A stretch of 11,774 nt of DNA from an uncultured Kouleothrix sp. Lineage in GTDB: Bacteria; Chloroflexota; Chloroflexia; Chloroflexales; Roseiflexaceae. The stretch is from NCBI GenBank assembly GCA_937858455.1, contig CALLYN010000051.1, positions 1 through 11,774 on the forward strand, written 5' to 3'. Each line of letters opens with the position of its first letter. The stretch's first letter is position 1. The notes beneath the pieces are model-generated. The model had not been told where the DNA came from, searched no databases, and worked only from the letters and a program-made list of their open reading frames with translations. Shown piece by piece: positions 1,004-11,774 of this stretch. A program made the position numbers and the translations under genes.

Positions 1004-1732
1004 ATGAAGGTCGCGTTCGTCTTCCCGGGACAGGGCGCACAGGAGGTCGGCATGGGCCGATCGCTGGCGTCGTCCATCCCCGAGGCGCGCGCGGTGTTCG
1101 ACACCGTGGACGCTGCCCTCGGCGACGAAACGCCGCTCTCGTCCCTCTGCTTCGAAGGCCCCGCCGAGGCCCTCACCCTCACCGCCAACACGCAGCCCGC
1201 CATCCTCGCCATGAGCATGGCGTGCCTCGCGGCGTTGCGCGCGCGCCTCCCGACGCTCCAGCCCACGATGCTCGCGGGGCACTCCCTCGGCGAGTACAGC
1301 GCCCTCGTCGCCGCGGGGGGCCTCGACCTCCCCACGGCGGCGCGGCTCCTGCGCCTCCGCGGTCGCGCCATGCAAGAGGCCGTCGCCCCCGGCGAAGGCG
1401 CCATGGCCGCCGTCATCGCCCTCGACGACGACAGCGTCGAGCGGCTCTGCGCCGAAGTGCAGCAGGAAATGCCAGGGCACGTCGTGCAGGCGGCCAACTT
1501 CAACTGCCCCGGCCAGGTGGTGGTGGCGGGCAGCGCCGAGGCCGTCGCCTTCGTGCGGCGCTACCCGAGCGACGTATGGCCGACGCTCTGGGTCATCGAG
1601 CCGACCGCGTTGGTGAGGATCGTGTCGACGGCAAACCCCGGCGCGATCGTTACGTCAAACTGGATCAGCCCGAATGCACCGTCGATCAAACGTCCAAAGT
1701 TGACCTTGACCGATGAAGCCGAGGTGTCATAG
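1004..1732 (+). pseudogene. fabD: Malonyl-CoA:ACP transacylase, 3' part replaced at a junction
   Basis: FabD moves malonate from CoA to acyl carrier protein at the start of type II fatty-acid synthesis. Residues 1 to about 184 (to about nt 1556) are a clean FabD N-terminus: the FPGQGAQ loop at 7-13, TQPAI at 63-67, the nucleophile motif GHSLGE at 92-97 (Ser94), RLRG with Arg119, and NCPGQVVVAG at 167-176. The similarity then stops. The remaining frame, to the stop at 1732, is antisense to a gene of the neighbouring element and looks nothing like FabD. The SAPFH-type segment with the catalytic His and the whole C-terminal third of a protein of about 310 residues are absent. As it stands the product would be inactive. 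Because fabD is normally essential, an assembly join or a second intact copy is more likely than a simple gene loss. Confidence 0.85.
1545..1570. other. Junction between two unlike DNA segments
   Basis: To the left, codons belong to fabD on the + strand with extreme GC3. To the right, coding moves to the - strand with moderate GC and different codon habits. FabD similarity fades after the AEAVAFV residues (about nt 1536-1556), and a - strand gene ends with a TAG at 1561-1563. I found no convincing direct repeat shared by this point and the last 100 bases beyond the integrase; the best match is only TCGAGCC. Confidence 0.7.
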
Positions 1733-1824
1733 GTTGCGGGAGCACCATCGAGCATGAATGTGCCATTGGTACCCATCAGGCGCGTGGTGGCGCCGGTCGC
1801 CGGGTGGGTTTTTATCGTGATCAC
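1561..1824 (-). CDS. Small hypothetical protein, possibly cut at the junction
   Basis: 87 residues from a GTG at 1824, preceded at good spacing by AAGGAGTGA, a strong Shine-Dalgarno sequence. The sequence begins MITIKTHPATGATTRLMG and is rich in Thr, Val, Ile and Gly with few charges. It looks like a beta-rich soluble protein, with no signal peptide or membrane helix. I do not recognise the family. It is the last gene of the - strand block, 63 nt after the FtsK-like gene. The stop lies within a few bases of the apparent junction with foreign DNA, so the true C-terminus may be lost and the stop may be accidental. Confidence 0.55.
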   Translation of the reverse strand: MITIKTHPATGATTRLMGTNGTFMLDGAPATYDTSASSVKVNFGRLIDGAFGLIQFDVTIAPGFAVDTILTNAVGSMTQSVGHTSLG

Positions 1825-1841
1825 AGGTCACTCCTTGTCGA

Positions 1842-1873
1842 TTAACCAGTTAACGCTTAACCACTTAACTGGT
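1842..1873. repeat. Four TTAAC repeats with 7-8 bp spacing
   Basis: TTAAC begins at 1842, 1850, 1857 and 1865, spaced 8, 7 and 8. Read as longer units, the 15-mers TTAACCAGTTAACGC (1842-1856) and TTAACCACTTAACTG (1857-1871) form a near-perfect tandem repeat. The array also contains an inverted repeat, ACCAGTTAA (1845-1853) against TTAACTGGT (1865-1873). AACCACTTAA (1859-1868) recurs inverted as TTAAGTGGTT at 1925-1934 inside the end of the FtsK-like gene. The patch from about 1825 to 1945 is sharply AT-rich compared with everything around it. It is a candidate protein-binding array. Its position right after an FtsK-like gene matches that of TraB recognition loci in Streptomyces plasmids. Confidence 0.7.
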
Positions 1874-1887
1874 CAGAATGCGGAATA

Positions 1888-3474
1888 TCAAGCGGAAAGT
1901 ACGAGGCGTGCGGCCATTAATTCATTAAGTGGTTTATTGAGTGACCACTCAAACCGATCGCTCGTGTCGGCGCCAGCGCGCCGACGATCGAGCATGCGAC
2001 GGTTCCACATCGTACTCAGCTCAACCCGAATCACCTGCACATCGATCGCGAGTGCCTCGGCGATCTCTCGCGACGTACACCACGGCCGCGCATCCAAGAG
2101 CATCAGGATCTGCTCTTGTACCGTGGGCTCAGGTAGCTGCGTCGTGGGGGGCACCGTGCCGGCCGGCATTAGCTCTGTGGTTGGCTTAGGGGCGGATGCG
2201 CGCGACACGGGAGCGCCGGGGAGGGCGCGCGGCGTGTAGGGCCGGGGGGGCGCGTCCTGCGCCGCGTACGCCGCATCGTCGTCACCGACCAGTGGCACCG
2301 TCACTGTCACCGTCCCGTCGGGGCCGGCGTAGAGCGCGCGGCCTTTGTCCAGGCCCTGCACCGCCCGCGCCTGTGCGCTCGATCCGCGCGGGAGCAGAAA
2401 CTCAACGTTGCCCGGATCCATCCGGTGGATAATGCGGTGCGTGAACGCGCGGCGCAGCGCTGCCCCCAAATCGCCGCCCAGACTGGCCTTGCTCCAGTCG
2501 TGCGCGATCAGCACCCCGTGTACGCCGACGCCGGCGTACTCAGCTGCCATGCTCGGCAGGATCGCCAGCACATCGTCCGGCAGCAGCTCGCGCCACACCA
2601 GGTTACTAAATTCGTCAATCACCAAAATCACCGGCGTGCGGTCGGGGTCGCCCGCGACGCGCCGCTTGCCGATCTTGTCGGCCAGGCGCACCATCTGCGC
2701 GATCTCCTCGGGCGTCACGGCCTGCCGTGCGAGCCGCCCCGAGAGCGGCCGCAGGCGATTGAGCAGGCCATCCGTCTTCTGAATATGCGGATCGCCAATC
2801 AGCACATGCCAGCCGCTCAGCACGGCCTGATCAATCAGCAGGCTTGCAGTCACGCTCTTGCCGACGCGCGGCTGGCCGCCGATGCCGATGAAGCCGCACT
2901 CGGCCAGCTCGATGTACTGCGGCTGGCCGTCCGCATATCCCACCAGCAGCGAGTTCCCCGATCGGCAGACGTGCCCGATCTGCTGGAGCTGCGCCAGCTG
3001 GGGGCCGCTGCCGCTGGTGATCGCCGGCAGCGCCGGCGCGGGCGGCGGGCTGATGCTCAGCAGGTTGCCCAGCAGCTCGGGCGATGCGATCGGGTGCGTC
3101 TCATTGTGGTAGTGGGTGAGGGTCGGGCTGACGCCGGCGCGCATGTATTCGACCGCGTAGTGCTGATCGAGCGTGGTATGGGCCAGCTGCTCGGCCAGCT
3201 CGGGCACGTCGCGCACGTGAATAGGCATGCCGTTTTGCAGGTGGGTCAGCTCGGCCTGCCAGGCGCGTGCGCGCTGCTGCGCGCCGAAGGCGAAGACGAT
3301 CCGCGCGCCGCCGATGAGTAGCACCACAGTGGTGCTCAGGGCCAGCATGCCAAAGATCGTGGTGTGGTCCGCGATCAGCGCGGCCACGGCCTGGCTGATC
3401 GCCCACGCGACGCTGCCAACCACCAGCAGTCCCGCGCCAACGGCGATGCTGATGCCGATCTGTTTGGGGGACAT
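1888..3474 (-). CDS. Membrane-anchored FtsK/HerA-type DNA translocase with C-terminal winged helix
   Basis: 528 residues from an ATG behind the Shine-Dalgarno AAAGGAT. Two hydrophobic helices (about 6-30 and 40-64) anchor the N-terminus. A linker (70-190) leads to an FtsK/VirB4-superfamily ATPase: Walker A GGQPRVGKS at 199-207, IGDPH at 226-230, Walker B VILVIDEF at 282-289, and an IAHDWSKA segment near 323-330. A Pro-rich stretch (409-450) then connects to a winged-helix domain (about 452-512) with a CTSREIAEALAIDVQVIRVE helix-turn-helix. This order, membrane anchor - motor - winged helix, is that of FtsK and of actinomycete TraB, single-protein pumps that move double-stranded DNA between cells. 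It could instead be a TraD-type coupling protein, but no relaxase or secretion genes are present in the window. The gene is separated from the one upstream by 117 nt holding two hairpins. Confidence 0.85.
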   Translation of the reverse strand: MSPKQIGISIAVGAGLLVVGSVAWAISQAVAALIADHTTIFGMLALSTTVVLLIGGARIVFAFGAQQRARAWQAELTHLQNGMPIHVRDVPELAEQLAHTTLDQHYAVEYMRAGVSPTLTHYHNETHPIASPELLGNLLSISPPPAPALPAITSGSGPQLAQLQQIGHVCRSGNSLLVGYADGQPQYIELAECGFIGIGGQPRVGKSVTASLLIDQAVLSGWHVLIGDPHIQKTDGLLNRLRPLSGRLARQAVTPEEIAQMVRLADKIGKRRVAGDPDRTPVILVIDEFSNLVWRELLPDDVLAILPSMAAEYAGVGVHGVLIAHDWSKASLGGDLGAALRRAFTHRIIHRMDPGNVEFLLPRGSSAQARAVQGLDKGRALYAGPDGTVTVTVPLVGDDDAAYAAQDAPPRPYTPRALPGAPVSRASAPKPTTELMPAGTVPPTTQLPEPTVQEQILMLLDARPWCTSREIAEALAIDVQVIRVELSTMWNRRMLDRRRAGADTSDRFEWSLNKPLNELMAARLVLSA

Positions 3475-3496
3475 AGCACATCCTTTCGATGGGGCA

Positions 3497-3521
3497 GGCT
3501 GTGCTATACTCGCGCACAGCC
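3497..3521 (-). promoter_or_regulatory. Inverted repeat upstream of the FtsK-like gene
   Basis: GGCTGTGC (3497-3504) and GCACAGCC (3514-3521) form an 8-bp inverted repeat around a 9-nt centre that reads GCGAGTATA on the coding strand. It lies about 22 nt before the ATG. The TATAGC inside could serve as a -10 box, but no good -35 lies at the right distance. An operator over a weak promoter, or a leader hairpin, are both possible. Confidence 0.4.
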
Positions 3522-3548
3522 CGCGTTGCTACCTCAATGCGGGCCACT

Positions 3549-3582
3549 GGGGTGCGGCGTGGTTTCAGCACGTCCGCACCCC
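3549..3582 (-). terminator. Strong hairpin after the 120-aa gene (terminator or attenuator)
   Basis: GGGGTGCGG (3549-3557) pairs with CCGCACCCC (3574-3582). Inside, CGTG (3558-3561) pairs with CACG (3569-3572), with one bulged base. The hairpin starts 9 nt after the stop of the 120-aa gene. No T-run follows on the - strand, so it is not a textbook intrinsic terminator. It may attenuate or process the transcript between the 120-aa gene and the FtsK-like gene. Confidence 0.5.
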
Positions 3583-3591
3583 GCCGTGTGT

Positions 3592-3954
3592 CTACAGCAG
3601 ATCGTCCTCGATGCCCATTGCCTGCCGATACTCAGGGCTGTCGCGCTCCTGCGTCCGGGCCTCCTCCTCGTCGAATGGCGGCGGCGGCAGCGTCTTCGCG
3701 CCGTTGGCCACTTGGTCGCTCTCTTTTAGCTTGGCGAGCTTGGCCTCCAGCCGCGCGAGCTGCTCAGTATCCGCCGGCCATGGCCGGCCTTTCGCGTAGC
3801 GGATGCGCCGCTCGAGGTCGTTGACCTTCACATTGTGGCTGTAGCGCTGCTTTTGCGCCTCGAAACGTGTCAGCAGCTCGGCCAGCGCTGCTGGCGGAAT
3901 ATAGTCGGGCAGCTGCTCGAGCAGCCATTTCAGCGGGTAGGTTTCGGTGATCAT
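3592..3954 (-). CDS. Small acidic helical protein, unknown
   Basis: 120 residues from an ATG preceded by AAGGAGG, overlapping the stop of the 104-aa gene by 4 nt (ATGA). The N-terminus, MITETYPLKWLLEQLPDYIP, looks like a compact helical segment. A heptad-like helix follows (about 60-80, LARLEAKLAKLKE), and the tail is very acidic (PFDEEEARTQE...IEDDLL). There are no cysteines, signal peptide or membrane segments. I do not recognise the family. Its place at the end of a chain of overlapping genes, just before the DNA translocase, suggests an accessory role for the element. The acidic tail could contact a DNA-binding partner or mimic DNA, but that is speculation. Confidence 0.75.
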   Translation of the reverse strand: MITETYPLKWLLEQLPDYIPPAALAELLTRFEAQKQRYSHNVKVNDLERRIRYAKGRPWPADTEQLARLEAKLAKLKESDQVANGAKTLPPPPFDEEEARTQERDSPEYRQAMGIEDDLL

Positions 3955-4265
3955 CGGCCCTCCTTGCCGATTCGCGCATCGATCCGTTTGCGCAGAGCTG
4001 TTGCGAACTTCTTGGCAGCTGGTAGCGTCTTAGCCTGGCCGATCTGATACTCGAGGCGATACGACAGCTCCCCCACAAGCACCCACGCCTCGTGGTTGCG
4101 CTGCTGCCAGCCCTCCATCAGCGCCTCGGCGGTCGCGCGCTCTTTGGCCAGCCATGCGCGGTCAGCTTCGGCTTGCGCCAACCGTTCTCGCAGCTGATCG
4201 ATCTCGTCGGCCTGCTGCGCGATCAGCGGCCGATCGGCAATGGCCAGCGCGATTTCTTCGCTCAT
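3951..4265 (-). CDS. Small coiled-coil protein, unknown
   Basis: 104 residues starting at an ATG whose last bases form the TGA of the 875-aa gene (ATGA, 4262-4265). Residues about 18-55 (ADEIDQLRERLAQAEADR and on) make a regular coiled coil. The C-terminus is basic (KKFATALRKRIDARIGKEGR) and could bind nucleic acid. The Shine-Dalgarno sequence is weak (GGGAAAGTGA), so the gene probably depends on translational coupling to the gene before it. Coding is supported by clean 4-nt overlaps at both ends. No family is recognised. With its large upstream neighbour and the following 120-aa gene it forms a fixed unit that may make one complex (inference). Confidence 0.75.
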   Translation of the reverse strand: MSEEIALAIADRPLIAQQADEIDQLRERLAQAEADRAWLAKERATAEALMEGWQQRNHEAWVLVGELSYRLEYQIGQAKTLPAAKKFATALRKRIDARIGKEGR

Positions 4266-6889
4266 GCCGACTTCACTTTCCCGCGCAGATCCTGCTGGGC
4301 CTCGCCGATCTGGCGCGCGAGCGACTCGGCTATGTCCACCGCCACGCTGCCGTCGCTGACGAGCTGCTCAAGCTCGTCAGCGAGCGTTTCCAGCTCGGCT
4401 GCCGTGATGTCGTCGGCGGTACCGTCGGCGATCCGCAGCCGGCAGGTGGCCAGCTGCACGCGAATCCACCGGATCGGCGCGGCCAGCCGGCGCTCCAGCT
4501 CGGCGACGCGCTGCTCTTGCTGGTCGGCGTACGACTCGATCTGGTCGAGGTAGCGCAGCGTGGCGCTCACATCGGCCGAGGCGGGCCGCTGCGGCCGGCG
4601 CACGCCGATCGCGGGCTGTACCATATCTGGTACAGCGGTGAGCGCGGCGGCCGGCTGCTGGCGCCGCGCGCGCTCTGCCTCTCGCTCGGCGTGCGACCGC
4701 TCCGCATAGACCAGATGTTGCAGCATATCCGGCCAATCGTACTGATCAACACCGCTGCCACGCTCGTTCTTGCAGCTAAACTTGCCATACATGTTCATAG
4801 CGAGATTGAGGCCAATCGCCCGCGCGCGGCGCTGCGCGTCGGCGAAGTCGGCCGGCAGCGACACGACCGGCGCCGCCGCTGGCGGCTCGCGCTTGGCCTG
4901 CTGGTCTGCATAGCTACGGATCTCCTGAGATCTAATATAGCCTTCCAGTTCGCCGACCGACTTGTGATAGGCGTAGTTGGCCGCACCCTTCGCATTCATC
5001 GTGCGATAGCTCCTCGTCTCCTTGTAGACCAGCAGGCCCGTCCGCGTCGCGCGATCGGCTAACTCTTTGGGTAGTGGCCAGGGCAGCTGCTCAGGCACTG
5101 GCGCCTTCGGCTGGCCACGCTGCTCAGGCGCGGGGGCGGCCGTGTTATCGAGCGCCCGATCGATTGTGGCAAATGCCCGCGCGTGCAGCGCCGTATCGCG
5201 GATCTCGCGGGCGTGGCTGTACGCCTCTTGGATCTGCGCCGGCCGTGCGCTGTCGGCCCACTGGTCGAGCGTGGCGATGATCTTCTCGATCGCCTGCAGA
5301 TGCTGCGCGTCGGCCTGCGCGAGCTGCTCAGCCTTGCGCGCATCGACGGCGGCCTGCACCTGGCCAGCGGTCGGCGTCGCGCCACCTGCGGCCGTGCTTG
5401 CGACCTGCCAGGCCTGCCGCTGCTGCTCGGGGGTGTCGAGCTGGCCCAGCGGCCGCAGCGTGCGCTCGGGCACCTCCGAGTTGCCCACGGGCAACTCCAA
5501 GAGCCGCTCGATCTTCGCCGCGTTGAGCAAGCGCGAGACATAGCTCTTGCTGTACTGCTCGCCCAGCTCGGCAAATTCGAGCGCGCGCTGGCGAAAGCTG
5601 CCGAGTGAGATCTCGGCCTGGCCGAGATCCTGGCGCATGGCGTCGAGCGTCTCGCGCGCCTCGGCCGCATCCATCATCGCCACGCCAACCGCCACCGGCG
5701 CGGCCGGCGCGAGCGCGGCTGTCGCGAGCAGCGCCACGATCCGCTCGCGGCGTAGCCGGATCTGCTCGACGCGCGCGAGCGCCGCATCGTGCCAGCCGAT
5801 CAGGTGATGCCAGCGGCCGTCGGGCGTGAAGGTGGCCGTCTGCCAGGTGTAGCGCGCCGCGACGAGCTGCGCGTGCAGCGCGTCGTCGAGGTCGGTGGCC
5901 TGCCGATCGCGCGTGACAACCAGGCCGCGCTTGATCGCGGCCGGCGAGAGCGCTGCTGGCTTGGCACGTGTGACCGTGCGGAATTGATGACATTGCGCGC
6001 ACAACGCAAGGCCTGGCGTGCTGAGATCCTCGATCCGCTGCGGCTCTTCGTGCTGCATCGCCATTCCACAGGCGCTCACAAAGCGAATCTTGGCGCTTCT
6101 GCTGGGATCTGAGCGCCACGTGTGGGCCAGCGTCTTCGAGGTATTGTTGCGGTGGAAACCGTAAAACCAGGGGCCAACCAGCTCGGGGAACTTCGCCGGT
6201 GCGGCCGGCTGGGGCGCCTGCAGGGCCGCGTAGCGCCCATCGCCAAGCGCGGCCTGGTAGGTGCCCAGCTCGCGCAGTAGCTTCTGCCAGGCTTCGTAGG
6301 CGGTTTGTGCGTCCTGCTGGCGCGTCTCGATCATCCGCCAGTGATCATCGCTTGGGCAGACGAAGTGATCGCGCTGGTGCGTGGTCGACCAGGGCTTACC
6401 GTCGCGCACCGTATTGAGCATTTTGGGCGTGTGCGCACTGATCTCACTGCGGGAGATACGCGGCACGGGGTTGCCGATAAAGTAATGCGTATCCGTGCTG
6501 TCGGGATCGTCGACGCTGATCACCGTCGGGCTGAGTGGGTTCGGCGCGGTCTTGACGCCGCCGGCCTCGGCCAGCCGCGTGGCGTAGCTGCCAAGCCGGC
6601 GCAGCTCGCCGGCGAAGCGATCGATCGCCAGCTGGAGATCCGCGCGGGCGCGCTCGATGCGCTGCCAGGCCGCCTCGTCCGGCACACACCAGACGTGATA
6701 CTGCTGCTTCGTGACGCCGGATTTCCCTTTAATTGGCTTTACGTCGCCGATCGTGCCGAACTCCAGTGCCACCGTCGTCGGGGTGTGATACTTGGTTTGG
6801 AGCCGCTCGATCGGCGCGAGCTTCCAGGGGTGGCTCTGATCGGCCACGTAGAGCACGTGCGGCACAATCGGCGGGGTGTGATTACTCAT
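4262..6889 (-). CDS. Large multidomain protein with repeated N-terminal module and ParB-like HTH
   Basis: 875 residues from the ATG at 6889, preceded by AGAAAGAGA. An in-frame extension to 7000 exists but overlaps the 61-aa gene and lacks a ribosome site. Residues about 51-102 and 165-211 are two copies of a module: KP...YHVWCVPDEAAWQRIE...LRRLGSY and KP...HFVCPSDDHWRMIE...LRELGTY. A weaker third copy lies at about 350-385 (ATFTPDGRWHHLIGWHDAAL). Between them, C274 and CAQC (297-300) may bind zinc. Residues about 418-515 resemble the DNA-binding part of ParB/KorB-like proteins: a helix-turn-helix around YSKSYVSRLLNAAKI, then PERTLRPLGQLDTPEQQRQA and PTAGQVQAAV. The C-terminal half is helical, with coiled coil at 785-805 and 830-870. 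DNA binding for partition, replication control or transfer is plausible. The overall architecture is unfamiliar to me. Confidence 0.85.
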   Translation of the reverse strand: MSNHTPPIVPHVLYVADQSHPWKLAPIERLQTKYHTPTTVALEFGTIGDVKPIKGKSGVTKQQYHVWCVPDEAAWQRIERARADLQLAIDRFAGELRRLGSYATRLAEAGGVKTAPNPLSPTVISVDDPDSTDTHYFIGNPVPRISRSEISAHTPKMLNTVRDGKPWSTTHQRDHFVCPSDDHWRMIETRQQDAQTAYEAWQKLLRELGTYQAALGDGRYAALQAPQPAAPAKFPELVGPWFYGFHRNNTSKTLAHTWRSDPSRSAKIRFVSACGMAMQHEEPQRIEDLSTPGLALCAQCHQFRTVTRAKPAALSPAAIKRGLVVTRDRQATDLDDALHAQLVAARYTWQTATFTPDGRWHHLIGWHDAALARVEQIRLRRERIVALLATAALAPAAPVAVGVAMMDAAEARETLDAMRQDLGQAEISLGSFRQRALEFAELGEQYSKSYVSRLLNAAKIERLLELPVGNSEVPERTLRPLGQLDTPEQQRQAWQVASTAAGGATPTAGQVQAAVDARKAEQLAQADAQHLQAIEKIIATLDQWADSARPAQIQEAYSHAREIRDTALHARAFATIDRALDNTAAPAPEQRGQPKAPVPEQLPWPLPKELADRATRTGLLVYKETRSYRTMNAKGAANYAYHKSVGELEGYIRSQEIRSYADQQAKREPPAAAPVVSLPADFADAQRRARAIGLNLAMNMYGKFSCKNERGSGVDQYDWPDMLQHLVYAERSHAEREAERARRQQPAAALTAVPDMVQPAIGVRRPQRPASADVSATLRYLDQIESYADQQEQRVAELERRLAAPIRWIRVQLATCRLRIADGTADDITAAELETLADELEQLVSDGSVAVDIAESLARQIGEAQQDLRGKVKSA

Positions 6890-7067
6890 GGGCGGTCTCT
6901 TTCTTGACAATGCCCTGGGCCGCTGCGCAGGCCGGGCAGAACGTTTGGAGCTGGTAGCAGCCGTCGGTCTGCTCGGCCACGCGCCCGATCGTCGCCACAT
7001 TCGTACAGCGACGCAGCGCAGCGACGCGCTGCGAGCAGCGCAGCGGCGGGCTCAGCGTGACAATCAC
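6882..7067 (-). CDS. 61-aa cysteine-rich protein, probable zinc ribbon
   Basis: I start this at a GTG (7065-7067) that shares bases with the TGA of the 96-aa gene (GTGA overlap), not at the far upstream ATG of the same frame, which would lie deep inside that gene. The 61 residues have cysteines at 10, 20 and 36 and a CPAC pair at 43-46, in the context ...RRCTNVATIGR...GCYQLQTFCPACAAA. This looks like a small zinc ribbon. The stop overlaps the start of the 875-aa gene by 8 nt, so translation is coupled on both sides. No known family is assigned. A nucleic-acid-binding or protein-binding adaptor is the usual fate of such folds. Confidence 0.7.
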   Translation of the reverse strand: MIVTLSPPLRCSQRVAALRRCTNVATIGRVAEQTDGCYQLQTFCPACAAAQGIVKKETAHE

Positions 7068-7354
7068 GACTGCACCAGCGGGCCGGCCTGTAATTGCCGG
7101 ATGCGCCAGCGGGCGAGCGCGGCCAGCGTGATATAGGCGGCAACCAGGTCGAGCGGCAGATCGGCCAGCACGGCGCGGCGCTCGCAAAGTGCCACAACCT
7201 GGTCCAGGTGCAAGGAGTGATTGGCGTTCTGGCGGTACAGCGTACGTGCGACCGCATAGTCCTCGTGCGCAGCATCATCGATCGGAATAGTGGCGAGCCG
7301 CTCGGCCACGATGGCGGTGTGCAGCGCGGCATAGGGTGGTTCGGCAATGCTCAT
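7064..7354 (-). CDS. 96-aa helical protein, unknown
   Basis: The start codon overlaps the stop of the preceding 90-aa gene (ATGA, 7351-7354) and lies behind the leader GAGGAGACGC, which also precedes two other genes here. The protein, starting MSIAEPPYAALHTAIVAERL, is mostly helical and rich in Ala, Leu and Arg. Its middle reads HEDYAVARTLYRQNANHSLH, and the C-terminal helix is LAALARWRIRQLQ. It has one cysteine and no membrane segment. I recognise no family. Its having its own strong ribosome site despite the overlap suggests it is needed at a higher level than its neighbours. Confidence 0.75.
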   Translation of the reverse strand: MSIAEPPYAALHTAIVAERLATIPIDDAAHEDYAVARTLYRQNANHSLHLDQVVALCERRAVLADLPLDLVAAYITLAALARWRIRQLQAGPLVQS

Positions 7355-7623
7355 TGCGTCTCCTCAGAGAGGTAGATATTCTTGCCGGTGCATCGGGGGG
7401 GGGGGCAGGCCACGCCCAGCGCGGCACACGCGGCGAGCACATCAGTATCGGTCGTCAGCACCGCCAGGCCGCACAAGCGCGCGGCGGCGGCCACGTCGCG
7501 CGCGGTGTCGAACAGCAGCTGTCCGTCACACAACGCGCCGCGCACCCGCGCGACGCGGTAGCCGCCCGTCAGCCCCGGCCCCACGTCGAGATACACACGC
7601 GGTGTGCTCGTGTTGAAGGTCAT
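7351..7623 (-). CDS. 90-aa protein containing an 11-base C tract, unknown
   Basis: Its ATG overlaps the stop of the helicase-loader gene (ATGA, 7620-7623) and has GGAGG at good spacing. The protein starts MTFNTSTPRVYLDVGPGLTG and looks alpha/beta: predicted strands YLDVG, YRVARVRG and LAVLTTD alternate with helices DTARDVAAAARLCG and DVLAACAALG. This pattern is faintly reminiscent of small Rossmann-like or PIN-like folds, but no catalytic acid set is clear. Near the end it reads CPPPRCTG, coded by an unbroken run of 11 C (7395-7405 as G on the + strand). Reading through that tract in this frame gives the expected 4-nt overlap with the next gene, which supports the frame. One base gained or lost there would change the last residues. 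Confidence 0.7.
   Translation of the reverse strand: MTFNTSTPRVYLDVGPGLTGGYRVARVRGALCDGQLLFDTARDVAAAARLCGLAVLTTDTDVLAACAALGVACPPPRCTGKNIYLSEETQ
7395..7405. repeat. Homopolymer G11/C11 tract
   Basis: An uninterrupted run of 11 G on the + strand lies in the 3' part of the 90-aa gene. It is the longest mononucleotide run I see in the window. The reading frame through it agrees with the gene's overlap with the next gene. Confidence 0.8.
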
Positions 7624-8588
7624 TGCGGCCTCCGTCGGCGCTGATCATCGCCCTCGACCAGTACCACCTCGCCGCGCGTCATTTGCAGCAGGCGCGACAG
7701 CGTGGCATCGTTGATCGTGGCCTGCTCGTACAGCTCCTCGGGCGTGCGATTGCTCGTGAGGATCGTCCAGCGGCGGCGCAGCCAGCGGCGGTTGATCACG
7801 TCGTACCACAGCTTTTCGATGCCGTTGGTGTCGTCGCCCGCGCGCGGCGGCAGTTGCCCCATATCGTCGAACGCAGTCAGCCAGGCCAGATCACCCGGCA
7901 GCGCGGCCAGCTGCTCGCGGTCTTTCAGCGGGGCTGACCAGGCATGCGAGATATAGCTGGCTTCTTCGACAAACACCGAAAGCCGCCCCCAGCCGCGCGC
8001 CCGGTTCACCGCGCCGGCTGCGAGGTGTGTTTTGCCGGTGCCTTTGCCAGGGAAATACAGGTACAGCGCGACGGGCGGCCCGCGGTGATAGTCGCCCTCG
8101 GCACTGGCGCGAATCTTCTCCAGCCAGTCGCACACGAGCCCATGCGGGTTTTCGTGCCCGAACCGCACACGCAACAAATCGGGGTTGTAGGTCTCCAATT
8201 TCAGATGTGCGATGCGCGCCAGCCCCGGATCGCCCAGCGCCCGCTCGGCGTCGGCCTGGCGCGTCTCCGCATCCCGGCGCGCCGTTGCCGCATCACGCGC
8301 AAACCATGCCATGCGCAACTTCTCGCACAAGCGCCACACGTAGTACGGCTCGCCCTTGCGTCCGTCGGGGATCGTCACCACATCCAAAACCTCCCCGCAG
8401 CACGGGCACTCGGTCTGCTCATCCGGACCGGTCGGGCGCGGCATCGGCGGTTTACCAATCGCGCCGCGCGGGGGTGATGCGGGCGGCAATGGCAGCGGGG
8501 TCGTAGACGGGGAGCTGCCGGCGGGCTGGAGGGCGGGCGGCAGATCGTCGGGCGTGATGCGTCGAAACAGCGACTTGTCGGGCTGCAT
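7620..8588 (-). CDS. DnaC/IstB-type AAA+ helicase loader
   Basis: 322 residues from an ATG behind GAGGAGACGC. A Pro-rich, low-complexity N-terminus (about 1-58) precedes a cysteine cluster (CPCCGEVLDVV at 61-71, with Cys88) that may bind zinc. The AAA+ core follows: Walker A PGKGTGKTH at 180-188, Walker B LTAFDDMG at 237-244, sensor I ILTSNRTPEEL at 276-286, and SRLLQM at 298-303 with the likely arginine finger. This is the DnaC/DnaI/lambda-P-like pattern of proteins that load the replicative helicase at an origin. IstB transposition helpers share the fold, but no IstA partner is present. The gene before it is a winged-helix initiator-like protein with an iteron array inside, which strongly favours a replication role. 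Its first 137 nt overlap the end of that gene in another frame. Confidence 0.88.
   Translation of the reverse strand: MQPDKSLFRRITPDDLPPALQPAGSSPSTTPLPLPPASPPRGAIGKPPMPRPTGPDEQTECPCCGEVLDVVTIPDGRKGEPYYVWRLCEKLRMAWFARDAATARRDAETRQADAERALGDPGLARIAHLKLETYNPDLLRVRFGHENPHGLVCDWLEKIRASAEGDYHRGPPVALYLYFPGKGTGKTHLAAGAVNRARGWGRLSVFVEEASYISHAWSAPLKDREQLAALPGDLAWLTAFDDMGQLPPRAGDDTNGIEKLWYDVINRRWLRRRWTILTSNRTPEELYEQATINDATLSRLLQMTRGEVVLVEGDDQRRRRPQ
8452..8588 (-). other. 137-nt out-of-frame overlap of initiator-like and loader genes
   Basis: The initiator-like frame stays open for 137 nt past the loader's ATG. There it codes a basic tail (THHARRSAARPPARRQLPVY...), while the loader frame codes its Pro-rich N-terminus. 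Both readings are low-complexity. The loader start has a strong GAGGAGACGC leader. It is possible that only one of the two terminal segments is functionally constrained. Confidence 0.6.
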
Positions 8589-9258
8589 GGGGCGTCTCCT
8601 CAGGCACGGTTACGCGCTGGCCGTTCGCCCAGCGCTTCGCAGTCAGATAGAAGGGCAGGCGAACACTGGGCAGTGTGGTGGCACGCTGTACATCCTGCTC
8701 AAATTCCGCCAACGTGCCAAGATTCTGCGCGACGATCCGGCGCGCAAGCGCGGCATTCATTCCCGGTTCAGCCAGCAGCCGTGCAAGCAATTGCGACCCG
8801 CGCGCCTCCTCCTCCTGATCTGACTCCTGATCTAGATCATGATCTACCATGCAGTCGTTTTTTACACGCTTTCGAATCGCTGCGGCTTCGAGCGCAGTGG
8901 AATGCGGTGCGCTCGTTTCGTGGGGCTGATCGATCAGCCCTGATCGATCAGGGGAAGGGGGCTGATCGATCAGCCCTGATCGATCAGAGGAAGAGGGCTG
9001 ATCGATCAGGGGTGAGACATCAATCTGGTAGCGGTTTTTGTAGGCGACACGGGTGATCTCGCCAGCCGCCTCCAGGCGCTGCATGAGCTGGCAGATGCGA
9101 CTGGCGGCGACGCCCACGAGCTGTGCCAGTGCGCGATGCCCGATGCTGATCCGTGTGCGTGCGTGCTCGTGCGCGAGCTGTCGGAGCGTGTCACGCAACC
9201 GATCCACCGCAAATGGCGCGGGAATCGTCGCTTGCGTTTTTGGAGATGTCGTGTACAC
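8452..9258 (-). CDS. Winged-helix replication-initiator-like protein with internal iterons
   Basis: 268 residues from the GTG at 9258, which has GAGGTGA at good spacing. A GTG at 9267 is in frame but has only a poor ribosome site. The N-terminal part (about 20-82) is a winged helix: HRALAQLVGVAASRICQLMQ is the helix-turn-helix and GEITRVAYKNRYQID the wing. A low-complexity linker follows with a 12-residue repeat, LIDQP-SSSDRSG then LIDQP-PSPDRSG, then LIDQP again. It is coded by the palindromic array at 8923-9012. Next comes an acidic stretch (DHDLDQESDQEEE), then a helical domain with a PFYLTAKRWANG motif seen in replication proteins of mobile elements, and a basic tail. The organisation (DNA-binding head, origin inside the gene, loader-contacting tail) mirrors phage lambda O. 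The family assignment is by architecture only. Confidence 0.75.
   Translation of the reverse strand: MYTTSPKTQATIPAPFAVDRLRDTLRQLAHEHARTRISIGHRALAQLVGVAASRICQLMQRLEAAGEITRVAYKNRYQIDVSPLIDQPSSSDRSGLIDQPPSPDRSGLIDQPHETSAPHSTALEAAAIRKRVKNDCMVDHDLDQESDQEEEARGSQLLARLLAEPGMNAALARRIVAQNLGTLAEFEQDVQRATTLPSVRLPFYLTAKRWANGQRVTVPEETPHAARQVAVSTHHARRSAARPPARRQLPVYDPAAIAARITPARRDW
8817..8845. repeat. GATC cluster with two overlapping palindromes
   Basis: GATC occurs at 8817, 8829, 8835 and 8841. CTCCTGATCT repeats directly at 8812-8821 and 8824-8833. TGATCTAGATCA (8828-8839) and AGATCATGATCT (8834-8845) are perfect 12-bp palindromes that overlap. A T-rich patch with a TTTTTT run (about 8855-8863) lies between this cluster and the iteron array. 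Together they look like the second half of an origin. Confidence 0.65.
8923..9012. repeat. Five-copy palindromic iteron array, candidate replication origin
   Basis: CTGATCGATCAG occurs perfectly at 8926-8937, 8940-8951, 8962-8973, 8976-8987 and 8998-9009. The spacing alternates 14, 22, 14, 22, giving a 36-bp period. Copies 1 and 3 extend to the 18-bp palindrome GGGCTGATCGATCAGCCC, and copy 2 to CCCTGATCGATCAGGG. Each copy carries two GATC sites, ten in all. The array is inside the winged-helix initiator-like gene, where it codes a 12-residue linker repeat. A T-rich patch and four more GATC sites follow within about 80-180 bp. The order of iterons, then AT-rich patch, then loader gene is that of lambda ori within gene O. 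Confidence 0.85.
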
Positions 9259-9289
9259 TGTGCTCACCTCTAGGGATACAGGGGCACGG

Positions 9290-9329
9290 AACCCGATCGC
9301 ATATGCTCGGCAGGGAGCGCGGTCGGGTT
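9290..9329. other. 11-bp inverted repeat between the 58-aa gene and the initiator gene
   Basis: AACCCGATCGC (9290-9300) pairs with GCGGTCGGGTT (9319-9329), with one G.T wobble, around an 18-nt loop. On the - strand transcript it lies between the stop of the 58-aa gene at 9344 and the initiator start at 9258. There is no T-run. It may be an attenuator, a processing site or an operator controlling the replication genes. Confidence 0.5.
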
Positions 9330-9343
9330 TCGTGCGTTCGGTG

Positions 9344-9520
9344 TTACGGCCGCGCCAGGGCGGCCTGCTGGGTCATAATTTGGCGGGCGATATACTGCGC
9401 CGTCGCAATCGCCGCACGGCGCGCGGGCGGCGGCAGGGCGGTATCAGCCGCGCGGTCTTCCGCCTGGCGCAGCTGGGTGTAGAGCGTTTCGAGCCAGAGG
9501 GCCACAAGCTCGGGGGGCAT
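9344..9520 (-). CDS. 58-aa helical protein, unknown
   Basis: A longer frame runs through here, but I place the start at the ATG 9518-9520, immediately after the TAG of the C2H2 gene (9522-9524). Upstream of that, the same frame merely shadows the zinc-finger gene. The 58 residues begin MPPELVALWLETLYTQLRQA and form two helices split by a PPPARR turn. The second helix reads AATAQYIARQIMTQQAAL-like. There is no good Shine-Dalgarno sequence, so translation probably re-initiates after the upstream stop. The first residues, MPPELV, echo MPPDLD at the start of the upstream gene, and the start contexts are also alike. Function unknown; small all-helical proteins in this position of mobile elements are often regulators, but I see no proof. 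Confidence 0.55.
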   Translation of the reverse strand: MPPELVALWLETLYTQLRQAEDRAADTALPPPARRAAIATAQYIARQIMTQQAALARP

Positions 9521-9521
9521 G

Positions 9522-10280
9522 CTAGGCCGCCCGCGGCAGCTTGGCCGCGCAGTCGAGACACCAGTCGCGCGAGGGGTGTTTGGTGAACGCATCGCGGCCG
9601 CACTTCGGGCACCGCCAGCGCGCCGGCTCGTGCTCGTATTCGTGCGCAGTGCCCGGGGGGAGCTCCAGCGGCGGCGCAGCTGGCCCCTGGTGGGCCCGCC
9701 GCCGCTTGTCGTTGGGGCTGGCGTGCATGGCGACAGCGAGGTCGAAGGGCGCCACCGGCTCGGCCACGCGCGCGGCCAGCACGGGCGGCGGCTGCGTCTC
9801 ATAGTCGCGGAGCGTGATGTGATGCCGGCGCCACACATGCGTGCTGAGCGACCGCCGGCCGGGGTAGCTGGCTCCGCATATCGAGCAGGGCAGCAGATCG
9901 GGCGCGGGTACGGGCGGTGGGGCGCATCCCGTCGCCACACCCAAAGCGGGCGGCGCCGCCCGATCTGTGTCCATCCCCGTGGCCGATGCGGCCACGGCGG
10001 GCGGCACGCGGGTTGCGTCGGCCAGCTGCTGCTGCAAGTGCACAATCAGCGCATCGCGGTCGCTGATCATCTGCGCTTGCTCCAGGAGTTGCCGCTCGGC
10101 CGCAATCACGCGGGCCAGGGTCGATGTGGCCCACGCCCGCCACGGGCCGAGCAGGCGCGGCGCGCTGCCGTCGTGCGGTACGCGCCACACGGCATCCAGG
10201 CGCACATAGTCGGCGCCGTCGAAGCTGCCGAGCGCGTCGTGCTCGAGGAGCAGTTGATGCACATCAAGGTCGGGGGGCAT
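9522..10280 (-). CDS. Protein with a eukaryote-like C2H2 zinc finger and a C-terminal zinc ribbon
   Basis: 252 residues from the ATG at 10280, which has GGAGG at good spacing. The open frame extends to 10475 but there only shadows the upstream gene. The N-terminal 50 residues look globular (LLLEHDALGSFDGADYVRLD). A coiled coil follows at about 55-90 (RVIAAERQLLEQAQ...HLQQQLADA), then a Pro/Ala linker. Residues 132-154 are a classical C2H2 finger: CSIC, twelve residues, H148, four residues, H153-H154 (C-x2-C-x12-H-x4-H). This spacing is the animal type, not the C-x2-C-x9-H form of bacterial Ros/MucR. The C-terminus has a four-cysteine ribbon, CPKC 224-227 and CLDC 241-244. Sequence-specific DNA binding is likely, and its place near the divergent integrase promoter fits a regulator. 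The full protein is not one I recognise. Confidence 0.75.
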   Translation of the reverse strand: MPPDLDVHQLLLEHDALGSFDGADYVRLDAVWRVPHDGSAPRLLGPWRAWATSTLARVIAAERQLLEQAQMISDRDALIVHLQQQLADATRVPPAVAASATGMDTDRAAPPALGVATGCAPPPVPAPDLLPCSICGASYPGRRSLSTHVWRRHHITLRDYETQPPPVLAARVAEPVAPFDLAVAMHASPNDKRRRAHQGPAAPPLELPPGTAHEYEHEPARWRCPKCGRDAFTKHPSRDWCLDCAAKLPRAA

Positions 10281-10497
10281 TGCGGGCCTCCATCCAGTGT
10301 GTGGCACAGTAGGCCAAGCCGTTCTGGCGCGCGGTCGCAGGCTGCCGACAGCTGGGCGACTCGCAGCACCAGGGGTCGCTGTGCGCGGCATCGGTGGTGC
10401 GGAACGCCGCGCGGTATTCCGCCGGCGTGATGGCGCCGGATTGCAGCTGGCGCTGTAATTCGCGGTGCGCTTCAATCGGATCGGTGATACAATACAT
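10264..10497 (-). CDS. 77-aa SHOCT-like / zinc-binding small protein
   Basis: The first gene of the - strand block. Its ATG (10495-10497) has the GAGGAGACGC leader 3 nt upstream of the start. Residues 8-32 (IEAHRELQRQLQSGAITPAEYRAAF) resemble the SHOCT motif, a short helical oligomerisation element with GxITxxEY. Then C44, C45, C50, C64 and H67 form a likely zinc site of the type CESPSCRQPA...GLAYCATHW. The last 17 nt overlap the start of the C2H2 gene. SHOCT segments usually sit at protein ends and mediate self-association. With a zinc knuckle, this could be an adaptor or small transcription factor acting in the nearby intergenic region. It has no feature of a typical excisionase beyond size and position. 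Confidence 0.75.
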   Translation of the reverse strand: MYCITDPIEAHRELQRQLQSGAITPAEYRAAFRTTDAAHSDPWCCESPSCRQPATARQNGLAYCATHWMEARNAPRP

Positions 10498-10510
10498 GGC
10501 GCGTCTCCTC

Positions 10511-10738
10511 GGTGACTGGCTCAGCCGCGCGAACGACTGAGCCGGGCGTCAATGTCGAACATTCTCCCGGTATCCCTCACTTTCTCGCAGTGTGACCGGC
10601 ACTCCGCGCATCTAGTGCGATCCCTGTCAGATCGCCGCAGATGCGCGCCGTGTCGCGTTGTGTACGAATTCGTGTACCAGCTCCGTTCACCAGCGGGGTA
10701 CACACGAAGGATGTACCCACTGGAGAAGGACAGCGATT
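10511..10738. promoter_or_regulatory. Divergent control region between the operon and the integrase
   Basis: About 230 nt without a convincing gene separate the - strand operon from the + strand integrase. It is dense in inverted repeats: GGCTCAG/CTGAGCC (10518-10524, 10537-10543); AATGT/ACATT around 10551-10563; GCGCATCT/AGATGCGC (10606-10613, 10639-10646); the palindrome ACGAATTCGT (10664-10673), flanked by GTGT and GTAC; and GGGTACA/TGTACCC (10696-10702, 10712-10718) just before the integrase ribosome site. TGTAC recurs several times. No clear -35/-10 pair is visible. Several binding sites for element-encoded regulators, or recombinase arm sites, are likely. Confidence 0.55.
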
Positions 10739-11686
10739 ATGGAGACCCGACCGCAAACCCACACCCCAACGGCCCCCACGACGTTGGCAACCGCCCCCAC
10801 CATCGCCAGCACGCTCGACTCATTCGTAGCCGCGTTGGCGGGCCGCAAGTACAGCGCGAACACCATCGACACCTACCGGCGCTGCATGGTGGCGTTCGCC
10901 GCGCATCTCGGCAGCGAGTCAACGCTCGATCAGATCACACACCTGAGCATCCTGGGGTACCAGGCCGGCCTGCGCCACTGTGAGGCGGCAACGATTAGCA
11001 AGGCGTTGTCGGCCATCCGCGCGTATTGCCGCTGGTGCGTGCGCGCCAAGCTGCGCGCCGACGATCCCAGCCTGGATCTGGTGTGGCCCAAGCGGCAGCA
11101 GCCCCTGCCGCGCCACCTGTCCAGCGGGGAGCTGCGCGAGCTGGAGGCGCTGCTCGCGCGGCCCTTGCCTGTGCTCGACAAGAAAGCCCGCTGGATGCTA
11201 CAGCGCGACCGGCGGGCGGTGCTGCTGATGCTCTACGCCGGCCTGCGACTCAGCGAGGCAGCGGCGCTGCTGTGGGGGGACGTGGATTTTGGAGCTGGCA
11301 CGCTGGCCGTGCACAAAGGCAAGGGCGGGAAGTCGCGCCTGGTGCCGTTGCACGCGCGGGTCCGCGCGGCGCTGGAGCTGGTGCCCGAGGCCGCGCGCGT
11401 CGGGCGCGTGGCCGGCGGCAGCCAGGGGCGGCGCGTGGCCGGGAAAACGCTGGCAAAAATGTTTGAGGCTGGCGGATGGGTGCGCGAGGGTGGACTGACG
11501 ATCTCGGCGCATATGCTGCGCCACACCTTTGCGGTCACACTGCTGCGCAATGGGGCCGATCTGCGCAGTATTCAGCTCCTGCTCGGCCATGCCTCATTGG
11601 CAACCACGCAAATGTATCTCGCGCTGGATTTACGCGACAAGCAAAAGGCGATTGCACTGCTGCCGGATTCGTTTATTGGGCAGTAG
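10739..11686 (+). CDS. Tyrosine recombinase / integrase (XerC/D-like)
   Basis: 315 residues from the ATG at 10739, 8 nt after the Shine-Dalgarno GGAGAAGGA. An in-frame ATG at 10658 lies in the repeat-rich control region and has no ribosome site. Residues about 24-107 form the SAM-like core-binding domain (STLDSFVAALAGRKYSANTI... RAYCRWCVRAKL). The catalytic domain is complete: Arg170 in LMLYAGLRLSEAA, the beta-hairpin Lys at 193-198 (HKGKGGKSRLVPL), His258 and Arg261 in HMLRHTFA, His284 in LLGHASLATT, and the nucleophile Tyr293 in TQMYLAL. The size and the LLGH-x8-Y spacing are those of Xer-type enzymes, with no long arm-binding N-terminal domain. It should cut and join DNA at an attachment site, giving integration and excision. 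It is the only + strand gene of the element and faces its right end. Confidence 0.93.
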   Translation: METRPQTHTPTAPTTLATAPTIASTLDSFVAALAGRKYSANTIDTYRRCMVAFAAHLGSESTLDQITHLSILGYQAGLRHCEAATISKALSAIRAYCRWCVRAKLRADDPSLDLVWPKRQQPLPRHLSSGELRELEALLARPLPVLDKKARWMLQRDRRAVLLMLYAGLRLSEAAALLWGDVDFGAGTLAVHKGKGGKSRLVPLHARVRAALELVPEAARVGRVAGGSQGRRVAGKTLAKMFEAGGWVREGGLTISAHMLRHTFAVTLLRNGADLRSIQLLLGHASLATTQMYLALDLRDKQKAIALLPDSFIGQ

Positions 11687-11695
11687 AAGGGGCGT

Positions 11696-11728
11696 AGACG
11701 GGATGGGAGGCGGGACATCATCCCGTCT
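11696..11728 (+). terminator. Hairpin after the integrase gene
   Basis: AGACGGGATG (11696-11705) pairs perfectly with CATCCCGTCT (11719-11728) around a 13-nt loop, starting 9 nt after the integrase stop. The bases after it (CCCGCTCCATAAG) contain no T-run. It is probably a terminator or RNA-stabilising hairpin. Being at the integrase end, it could also be part of an attachment site. Confidence 0.55.
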
Positions 11729-11743
11729 CCCGCTCCATAAGTA

Positions 11744-11774
11744 CAGGGGTGTGGCTCTTCGAGCCACACCCCTG
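11744..11774. repeat. Perfect 14-bp inverted repeat with 3-nt loop at the window end
   Basis: CAGGGGTGTGGCTC (11744-11757), TTC, then GAGCCACACCCCTG (11761-11774). The repeat ends exactly on the last base of the window. It could be a bidirectional terminator whose T-run lies beyond the window, part of an element end, or a fold-back at a contig end. Confidence 0.8.

Follow-up and report, generated by a model that had tools for sequence, protein, structure and literature searches.

A GATC-palindrome array within an initiator-like gene of a Kouleothrix integrative element is a probable embedded replication origin in the manner of phage lambda

The region at positions 8818-9009 of the window, by which we mean the whole 11,774-bp stretch of DNA that was analysed, is probably the replication origin of a small integrative element and is embedded in the initiator gene of that element in the manner of the lambda O-ori. 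It is most likely a lambda-like embedded origin with new sites, whose initiators are not homologous to lambda O. The window is the entire contig G000:C51 of a 5.14-Mb draft genome (71.5% complete) of an uncultured Kouleothrix sp. The core of the region is an array of five exact copies of CTGATCGATCAG, whose starts are separated by steps of 14, 22, 14 and 22 bp (Table 1). The preliminary description of this DNA had reported both the array and a cluster of 14 GATC sites within about 200 bp; re-counting bore out the copies and their alternating spacing over 8926-9009, as well as the 14 sites in 8812-9012. Each copy contains two GATC. With up to three mismatches allowed, the window had 26 occurrences of CTGATCGATCAG (5.5 expected), a number reached by 0 of 200 shuffles. 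The array had also been placed inside a winged-helix initiator-like gene, and indeed it lies within a minus-strand open reading frame (ORF). A T-rich patch at about 8858-8863 (A-rich on the coding strand of the initiator gene) and a group of overlapping GATC palindromes are found 3' of the array in the coding direction, followed by the ORF of a helicase loader, again as described. A weak inverted repeat at 8889-8915 was not significant as a single-strand fold (z -1.23, with 23 of 200 shuffles folding equally).

Table 1. Positions of the array, of the neighbouring sequence features and of the main genes in the window
Feature	Position	Strand	Remark
Iteron copy 1, CTGATCGATCAG	8926..8937		exact match
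Iteron copy 2, CTGATCGATCAG	8940..8951		exact match
Iteron copy 3, CTGATCGATCAG	8962..8973		exact match
Iteron copy 4, CTGATCGATCAG	8976..8987		exact match
Iteron copy 5, CTGATCGATCAG	8998..9009		exact match
Overlapping GATC palindromes	8828..8846		TGATCTAGATCA (8828-8839) and TAGATCATGATCTA (8833-8846)
Proposed unwinding element	8818..8877		lowest-stability 60 bp of the window except a few positions at 1808-1811
Inverted repeat, weak	8889..8915		8-bp arms CGAGCGCA / TGCGCTCG
Initiator-like gene	8452..9267	-	271 aa
DnaC/IstB-type helicase-loader-like gene	7620..8588	-	137-bp overlap with the initiator ORF
Membrane-anchored ATPase-like gene, FtsK/HerA-type by reading	1888..3474	-	sub-threshold matches, AAA_22 E 0.0017
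Tyrosine integrase of the element	10658..11686	+	PF00589 E 7.6e-29

The initiator-like protein comprises a winged helix (about residues 16 to 90, an assignment based on VIA-align with coverage mainly of residues 13 to 94), a linker predicted to be disordered (residues 91 to 154) and a C-terminal domain predicted to be helical (residues 155 to 222). A Foldseek search with this protein gave no match at an E value of 0.001 or better. Since the array codes for nothing but this predicted linker, which joins the two domains, the protein would tolerate it. The product of the overlapping loader ORF matched phrog_50, "DnaC-like helicase loader" (E 4.6e-19), and, under its curated cut-off, the Pfam family IstB_IS21 (E 0.0012). 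No match to a 901-bp region of the window was found by blastn (E 1e-5) among 50,697 GenBank phage records or 72,556 plasmids, and a tblastn search (E 0.01) with two initiators found none among the same 50,697 phage records.

The element (1551-11774) lies as if inserted in fabD, judging from the gene at 1004-1732, whose family match covers only residues 1 to about 183 of 290 positions. After fabD, the order is the FtsK/HerA-like gene (weak matches), a large unknown gene, small genes, the loader, the initiator, a gene with weak zinc-finger matches and the integrase. Over 324 residues, the ATPase-like gene was 30% identical to one of the viral contig L039; the product of the latter gene weakly matched a PHROG annotated as terminase large subunit (E 7.9e-4). 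The large gene (4262-6886) had no Pfam or NCBIfam match. As to att repeats, 1401-2000 and 11601-11774 shared no word of 10 bp or more; the right end may be beyond the contig.

We then asked how much of the array is dictated by the peptide. As a null model, synonymous codons were permuted within a gene, so that the protein and the codon usage were preserved (2000 permutations). The window initiator gene contains five TGATCGATCA against a mean of about 1.0, and 0 of 2000 permutations were as high in either of two runs. It also has 19 GATC against a mean of about 13 (5 and 1 of 2000 as high in the two runs) and 14 GATC in its best 200 bp against a mean of about 9 (4 and 1 of 2000). Since no synonymous-codon permutation gave five copies, the array exceeds what the peptide requires. 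Among the control genes, the loader (498 of 2000), the integrase and fabD were ordinary under this null. The large unknown gene had a high GATC total (38 against 25; 0 of 2000) that was not clustered, and the FtsK-like gene was above the null in its total (4 and 2 of 2000) but not in its clustering. In the whole window, GATC occurs 121 times against 57 expected from dinucleotides. Such a global enrichment was rejected as a signal: under the trinucleotide expectation, the ratio for the element (1.18) was about that of host stretches totalling 26 kb (1.17), and the signal is therefore the local cluster, not the total. Elsewhere in the host genome, the exact 12-mer was found as five single copies; the one inspected falls in a long ORF, and no initiator was present in the examined stretch of its contig.

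According to a nearest-neighbor profile, only 0.026% of the positions in the window are less stable than the proposed unwinding element, which sits 3' of the array in the coding direction. Of the sequence checks put forward in the preliminary description, most speak for the origin; duplex stability and cumulative GC skew were among them. The former favours the origin reading, with 8818-8877 adjoining the array on its 3' side; the latter had its minimum at 5696 and its maximum at 11714 in the element, and nothing at the array. We compared the layout in 12 genes (the window's, that of the phage contig L181, nine of a second initiator family and that of the genome G008; see below). In 11 of the 12, the 60 bp of lowest stability within the gene came 3' of the main array, and five of the nine second-family genes had further sites beyond them. 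The exception was G008, in which they were elsewhere in the gene (relative positions 296-356) and came after the array only with a calculation window of 30 or 40 bp. An in-frame ATGG was present near the start of the low-stability stretch in 11 of the 12 genes, G008 again excepted; in the window, it directly precedes the overlapping palindromes. When four further array-bearing genes were considered, L036 obeyed the layout, L178 was ambiguous, with its least stable stretch between sites, and L128 and L175 did not have it, as their least stable stretch overlaps the sites. Lambda O was run identically as a control: its annotated iterons end at relative position 432, and its least stable 60 bp are at 437-497. 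The order winged helix, array, low-stability stretch, C-terminal domain and loader gene recurs; the preliminary description had likened the arrangement in the window to lambda O-ori-P.

The closest homologue of the window initiator, with 47% identity over 231 residues, is encoded by L181, an IMG/VR contig that has terminase and amidase genes and is thus a phage. This gene bears three exact CTGATCGATCAG and has a phrog_50 loader next to it, and the L181 integrase is 49% identical to that of the window. Scrambled synonymous codons behind the LIDQP peptide had been named as an outcome against the origin; L181 has LIDQP twice, and its codons there, CTG ATC GAT CAG CCC, are those of the window. At residues identical between the window and L181, the same codon was used at 21 of 24 positions touching GATC versus 48 of 88 elsewhere (p 0.004). 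The same test was not significant for the closer pairs L197/L199 (p 0.60) and L198/L199 (p 0.28) of the second family. When 82 genomes of the order were scanned for triple GATCGATC, only two genes were found, the window's and that of G008, a genome from the same family but a different genus; among 400 genomes drawn from the phylum, G008 not being one of them, the window alone was hit. The G008 initiator (379 aa, two winged-helix repeats) is 24% identical to that of the window, and its phrog_50 loader ORF comes next, with a 167-bp overlap. Its peptide differs, but the GATCGATC cluster is kept. Under the codon null, this gene had 22 GATC against 13.7 (0 of 2000) and four GATCGATC against 0.7 (1 of 2000), with an ordinary TGATCGATCA count (321 of 2000 permutations). 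The G008 element has the order integrase, initiator, loader, D12 adenine methylase, Prim-Pol fragment and FtsK/HerA-like gene, the last by reading. A homologue without the repeat, the other outcome named against an origin, was seen in G051: this partial relative (37% over 60 residues, mainly the C-terminal domain being shared) has no cluster and only 4 GATC in 1740 bp, below the null. Its gene has a ParA-like neighbor (by reading) and no loader in the stretch examined. With the window/L181 alignment as a protein query, no new full-length relative was obtained: the viral search returned L181 again, and the 400 genomes gave three matches, the window's own and two partial ones. A related-locus search with single window proteins found none, although the collection included L181, which is a limit of the method.

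A second initiator family (L038, L039, L043, L048 and L179) was recognised via its arrays; the winged helix relates it to the first (hhalign 93.4%, E 2.6e-7). A protein-similarity search with this family gave ten loci, six known and four new. All four new members, L195, L197, L198 and L199, had GATC clusters (12, 12, 12 and 11 per 200 bp, reached by 2, 0, 2 and 2 of 2000 permutations, respectively), the query containing the array-coded linker, so that these loci are not wholly independent of the array. The total GATC of L199 was ordinary (145 of 2000). Wider protein searches with the second family gave weak, mostly winged-helix-only matches in 17 of 400 and 3 of 82 genomes; sixteen loci from such matches, used as controls, had at most 3 to 7 GATC per 200 bp. 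The cores of the sites vary within the family, with GATCACGnnnCGTGATC in L197 to L199 and GATCAGCTGATC in L195, and L197 and L199 share 98 bp of the low-stability region without any difference. The next ORF encodes a stand-alone DnaA domain-IV-like protein, not a loader, in three cases (L194:7080-7445, L199:4336-4707 and L201:6921-7292; Bac_DnaA_C, E 2.5e-20 to 2e-14). In four chosen genes of the family, a hairpin fold was obtained for the low-stability stretch (z -4.2 to -5.4). Across nine genes, compensatory changes were found in 8 of 18 pairs, together with several broken cells, and the covariation term was slightly unfavourable, at +0.46 kcal/mol.

We also examined how specific the GATC word is. 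Two TGATCGATCA within 30 bp were found at 11 loci of viral contigs, 8 of them in initiator-type genes: L039, L048 and L179 of the second family, L181, L175, and L176/L178/L180, which form one group and are not independent. The L178 product matched phrog_16167, "replication initiation protein" (E 3.8e-6). That of L175:6735-7811, a gene with two TGATCGATCA, had no PHROG match and carries a match to the DnaA N-terminal domain near its C terminus (PF11638, DnaA_N, E 3.2e-6); it is the weakest array gene under the codon null, with 7 GATC per 200 bp (30 of 2000 permutations). The loci outside initiator-type genes were L051, L177 and L182. The control palindrome TCATGCATGA gave five viral loci, one of them in a replication-initiation gene (L186). 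Because the double TGATCGATCA fell in initiator-type genes in 8 of 11 cases and the control in 1 of 5, sites within initiator genes are a general design that the GATC word marks often, not exclusively. In L186:1106-2095, the TCATGCATGA sites are in the stretch after the helix-turn-helix. Iterons of other sequence may mark other initiators.

A viral triple-site scan gave 41 loci, 6 of them in initiator-tied genes (L026, L036, L038, L039, L043 and L048, with an identical protein in L026 and L043). One more, L035, is a winged-helix-looking gene without a PHROG match, and the other 34 are not initiator-tied by reading. In a viral group of about fifteen loci by reading, L019, L024, L028 and L029 among them, GATCGATC runs were at the end of, or close to, a terminase-small-subunit-looking gene. 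A genome-wide double-site scan gave at least 119 loci, for 16 of which the ORFs were read. L128 matched replication-initiation PHROGs, and its gene has 13 GATC per 200 bp, reached by 1 of 2000 permutations; the remaining 15 resemble chance occurrences or simple tandem repeats. The presence of such strings in several other phage initiator genes points to retention of the DNA signal as such.

In the origin proposed here, the winged-helix N terminus of the 271-aa protein would bind the GATC palindromes as iterons. The bound array would help to open the low-stability stretch just downstream, as the position and stability of the latter suggest, and the C-terminal domain, together with the overlapping DnaC-like protein, would recruit the replicative helicase, to judge from gene content and order. 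More speculatively, adenine methylation may tune binding or melting, because each iteron has two GATC and the host has a Dam-like methylase. The host assembly contains one D12 methylase gene (PF02086, E 6.8e-55), whose product is closest in the PDB to DpnM (2dpm, E 8.8e-68) and then to Escherichia coli Dam (E about 3e-39); its activity is predicted. In the G008 element, a D12-class adenine methylase gene (L227:12462-13328) comes right after the initiator and loader. Its product matched PF02086 (E 3.6e-11) over a span of 46 residues and had no PDB relative at an E value of 0.001. SeqA-like control had been suggested initially; SeqA itself was not found, in that PF03925 had no match in the host assembly, which is 71.5% complete, or in G008, and among 25 genomes it matched in one (G013, with one stop inside). 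A broader idea, which we consider possible but rather doubtful, is that origins built from GATC-palindrome iterons in initiator genes recur in several distant or unrelated initiator families of phages and integrative elements. The reason for their retention or repeated emergence would be that a methylase of the host or of the element, by acting on GATC, gates initiator binding or strand opening, and the elements would then have a methylation-clocked origin without SeqA.

The same features could be read in other ways. The resemblance of the winged helix to CRP/FNR and MarR regulators and the palindromic form of the sites, which is common in operators, would fit an operator through which the protein regulates its own gene or the replication operon while replication starts elsewhere. 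However, the array is internal to the gene and comes 3' of the codons for the winged helix; a low-stability stretch adjoins it in 11 of 12 genes, and the same embedded-array design is present in genes that PHROGs label replication initiation protein (L036, L128 and L178). We regard an operator in place of an origin as unlikely, and the two roles could coexist. It is very unlikely that the array is a methylation switch in the first place, with GATC there for methylation and not as the initiator's binding array. Although GATC is kept while the site cores differ between subgroups, and the host enzyme and the methylase gene after the G008 loader are in line with such a switch, GATC alone would suffice for it and the 12-bp palindromes in the arrays would be unneeded; neither SeqA in the two assemblies nor a PDB relative of the G008 methylase at an E value of 0.001 was found.

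Still less probable, and already disfavoured, is a low-complexity peptide linker that arose by tandem duplication and has no function as DNA. The window array is composed of two 36-bp units and one third site, and between the units 2 of the 36 positions differ, neither of them in a palindrome. Some of the array could thus stem from tandem duplication, so that the five copies do not count as five independent events; a disordered linker, as predicted here, would also agree with this explanation. Against it are the codon permutations, the arrays in relatives with other peptides and the identical palindromes in two reading frames: the two sites of each unit are translated as LIDQ and DRS, so that no single peptide motif accounts for both. 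The least probable explanation is a recognition site for the FtsK/HerA-like ATPase, for transfer or packaging, that is in the initiator gene by chance. ATPase-like genes occur in the window and G008 elements (by reading, with weak matches), but tblastn (E 1e-4) found no relative of the window gene in the 14.6-kb L181 stretch with the array, and across different elements the arrays go with initiator genes. If the array is an origin, as we favour, clustered GATC palindromes in a coding linker would by themselves indicate, in uncultivated phages and integrative elements, where the origin lies and which gene encodes the initiator. The word would be useful where initiators match no or few family models, given that 8 of the 11 viral double-site loci are initiator-type. 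It would also raise a testable question, whether adenine methylation controls replication outside Dam/SeqA bacteria.

The element can be compared with three known systems. AICE-type integrative elements of actinomycetes combine an integrase, a replication initiator and an FtsK-type translocase. The window and G008 elements likewise have an integrase, an initiator and a putative FtsK/HerA-like gene (weak matches), and G008 has a Prim-Pol fragment in addition. Unlike AICEs, the window has a phage-type initiator/loader pair and seemingly interrupts fabD, not a tRNA gene, and the bearer of the orthologous initiator, L181, is a phage. E. coli oriC and P1 oriR are GATC-rich origins under Dam/SeqA control. 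They share with the window the dense GATC at the presumed origin and a Dam-like methylase gene in the host, whereas the GATC sites of the window belong to palindromic arrays inside the initiator gene and SeqA was not found in the host assembly or G008. Phage lambda differs in its initiator and its sites. Lambda O has no profile similarity to the window initiator (hhalign probability 0.1%, E 0.59), which had no match to the Pfam O family either. The lambda O gene has 3 GATC, and the lambda iterons are 18 bp as annotated while the window sites are 12-bp GATC palindromes. The helicase loader of lambda is P; the matches listed for the window loader are of the DnaC/IstB type. In its arrangement, the window resembles lambda O-ori-P: the presumed iterons are within the initiator gene, a low-stability stretch is directly 3' of them, and a helicase-loader gene comes next, overlapping or abutting the initiator gene.
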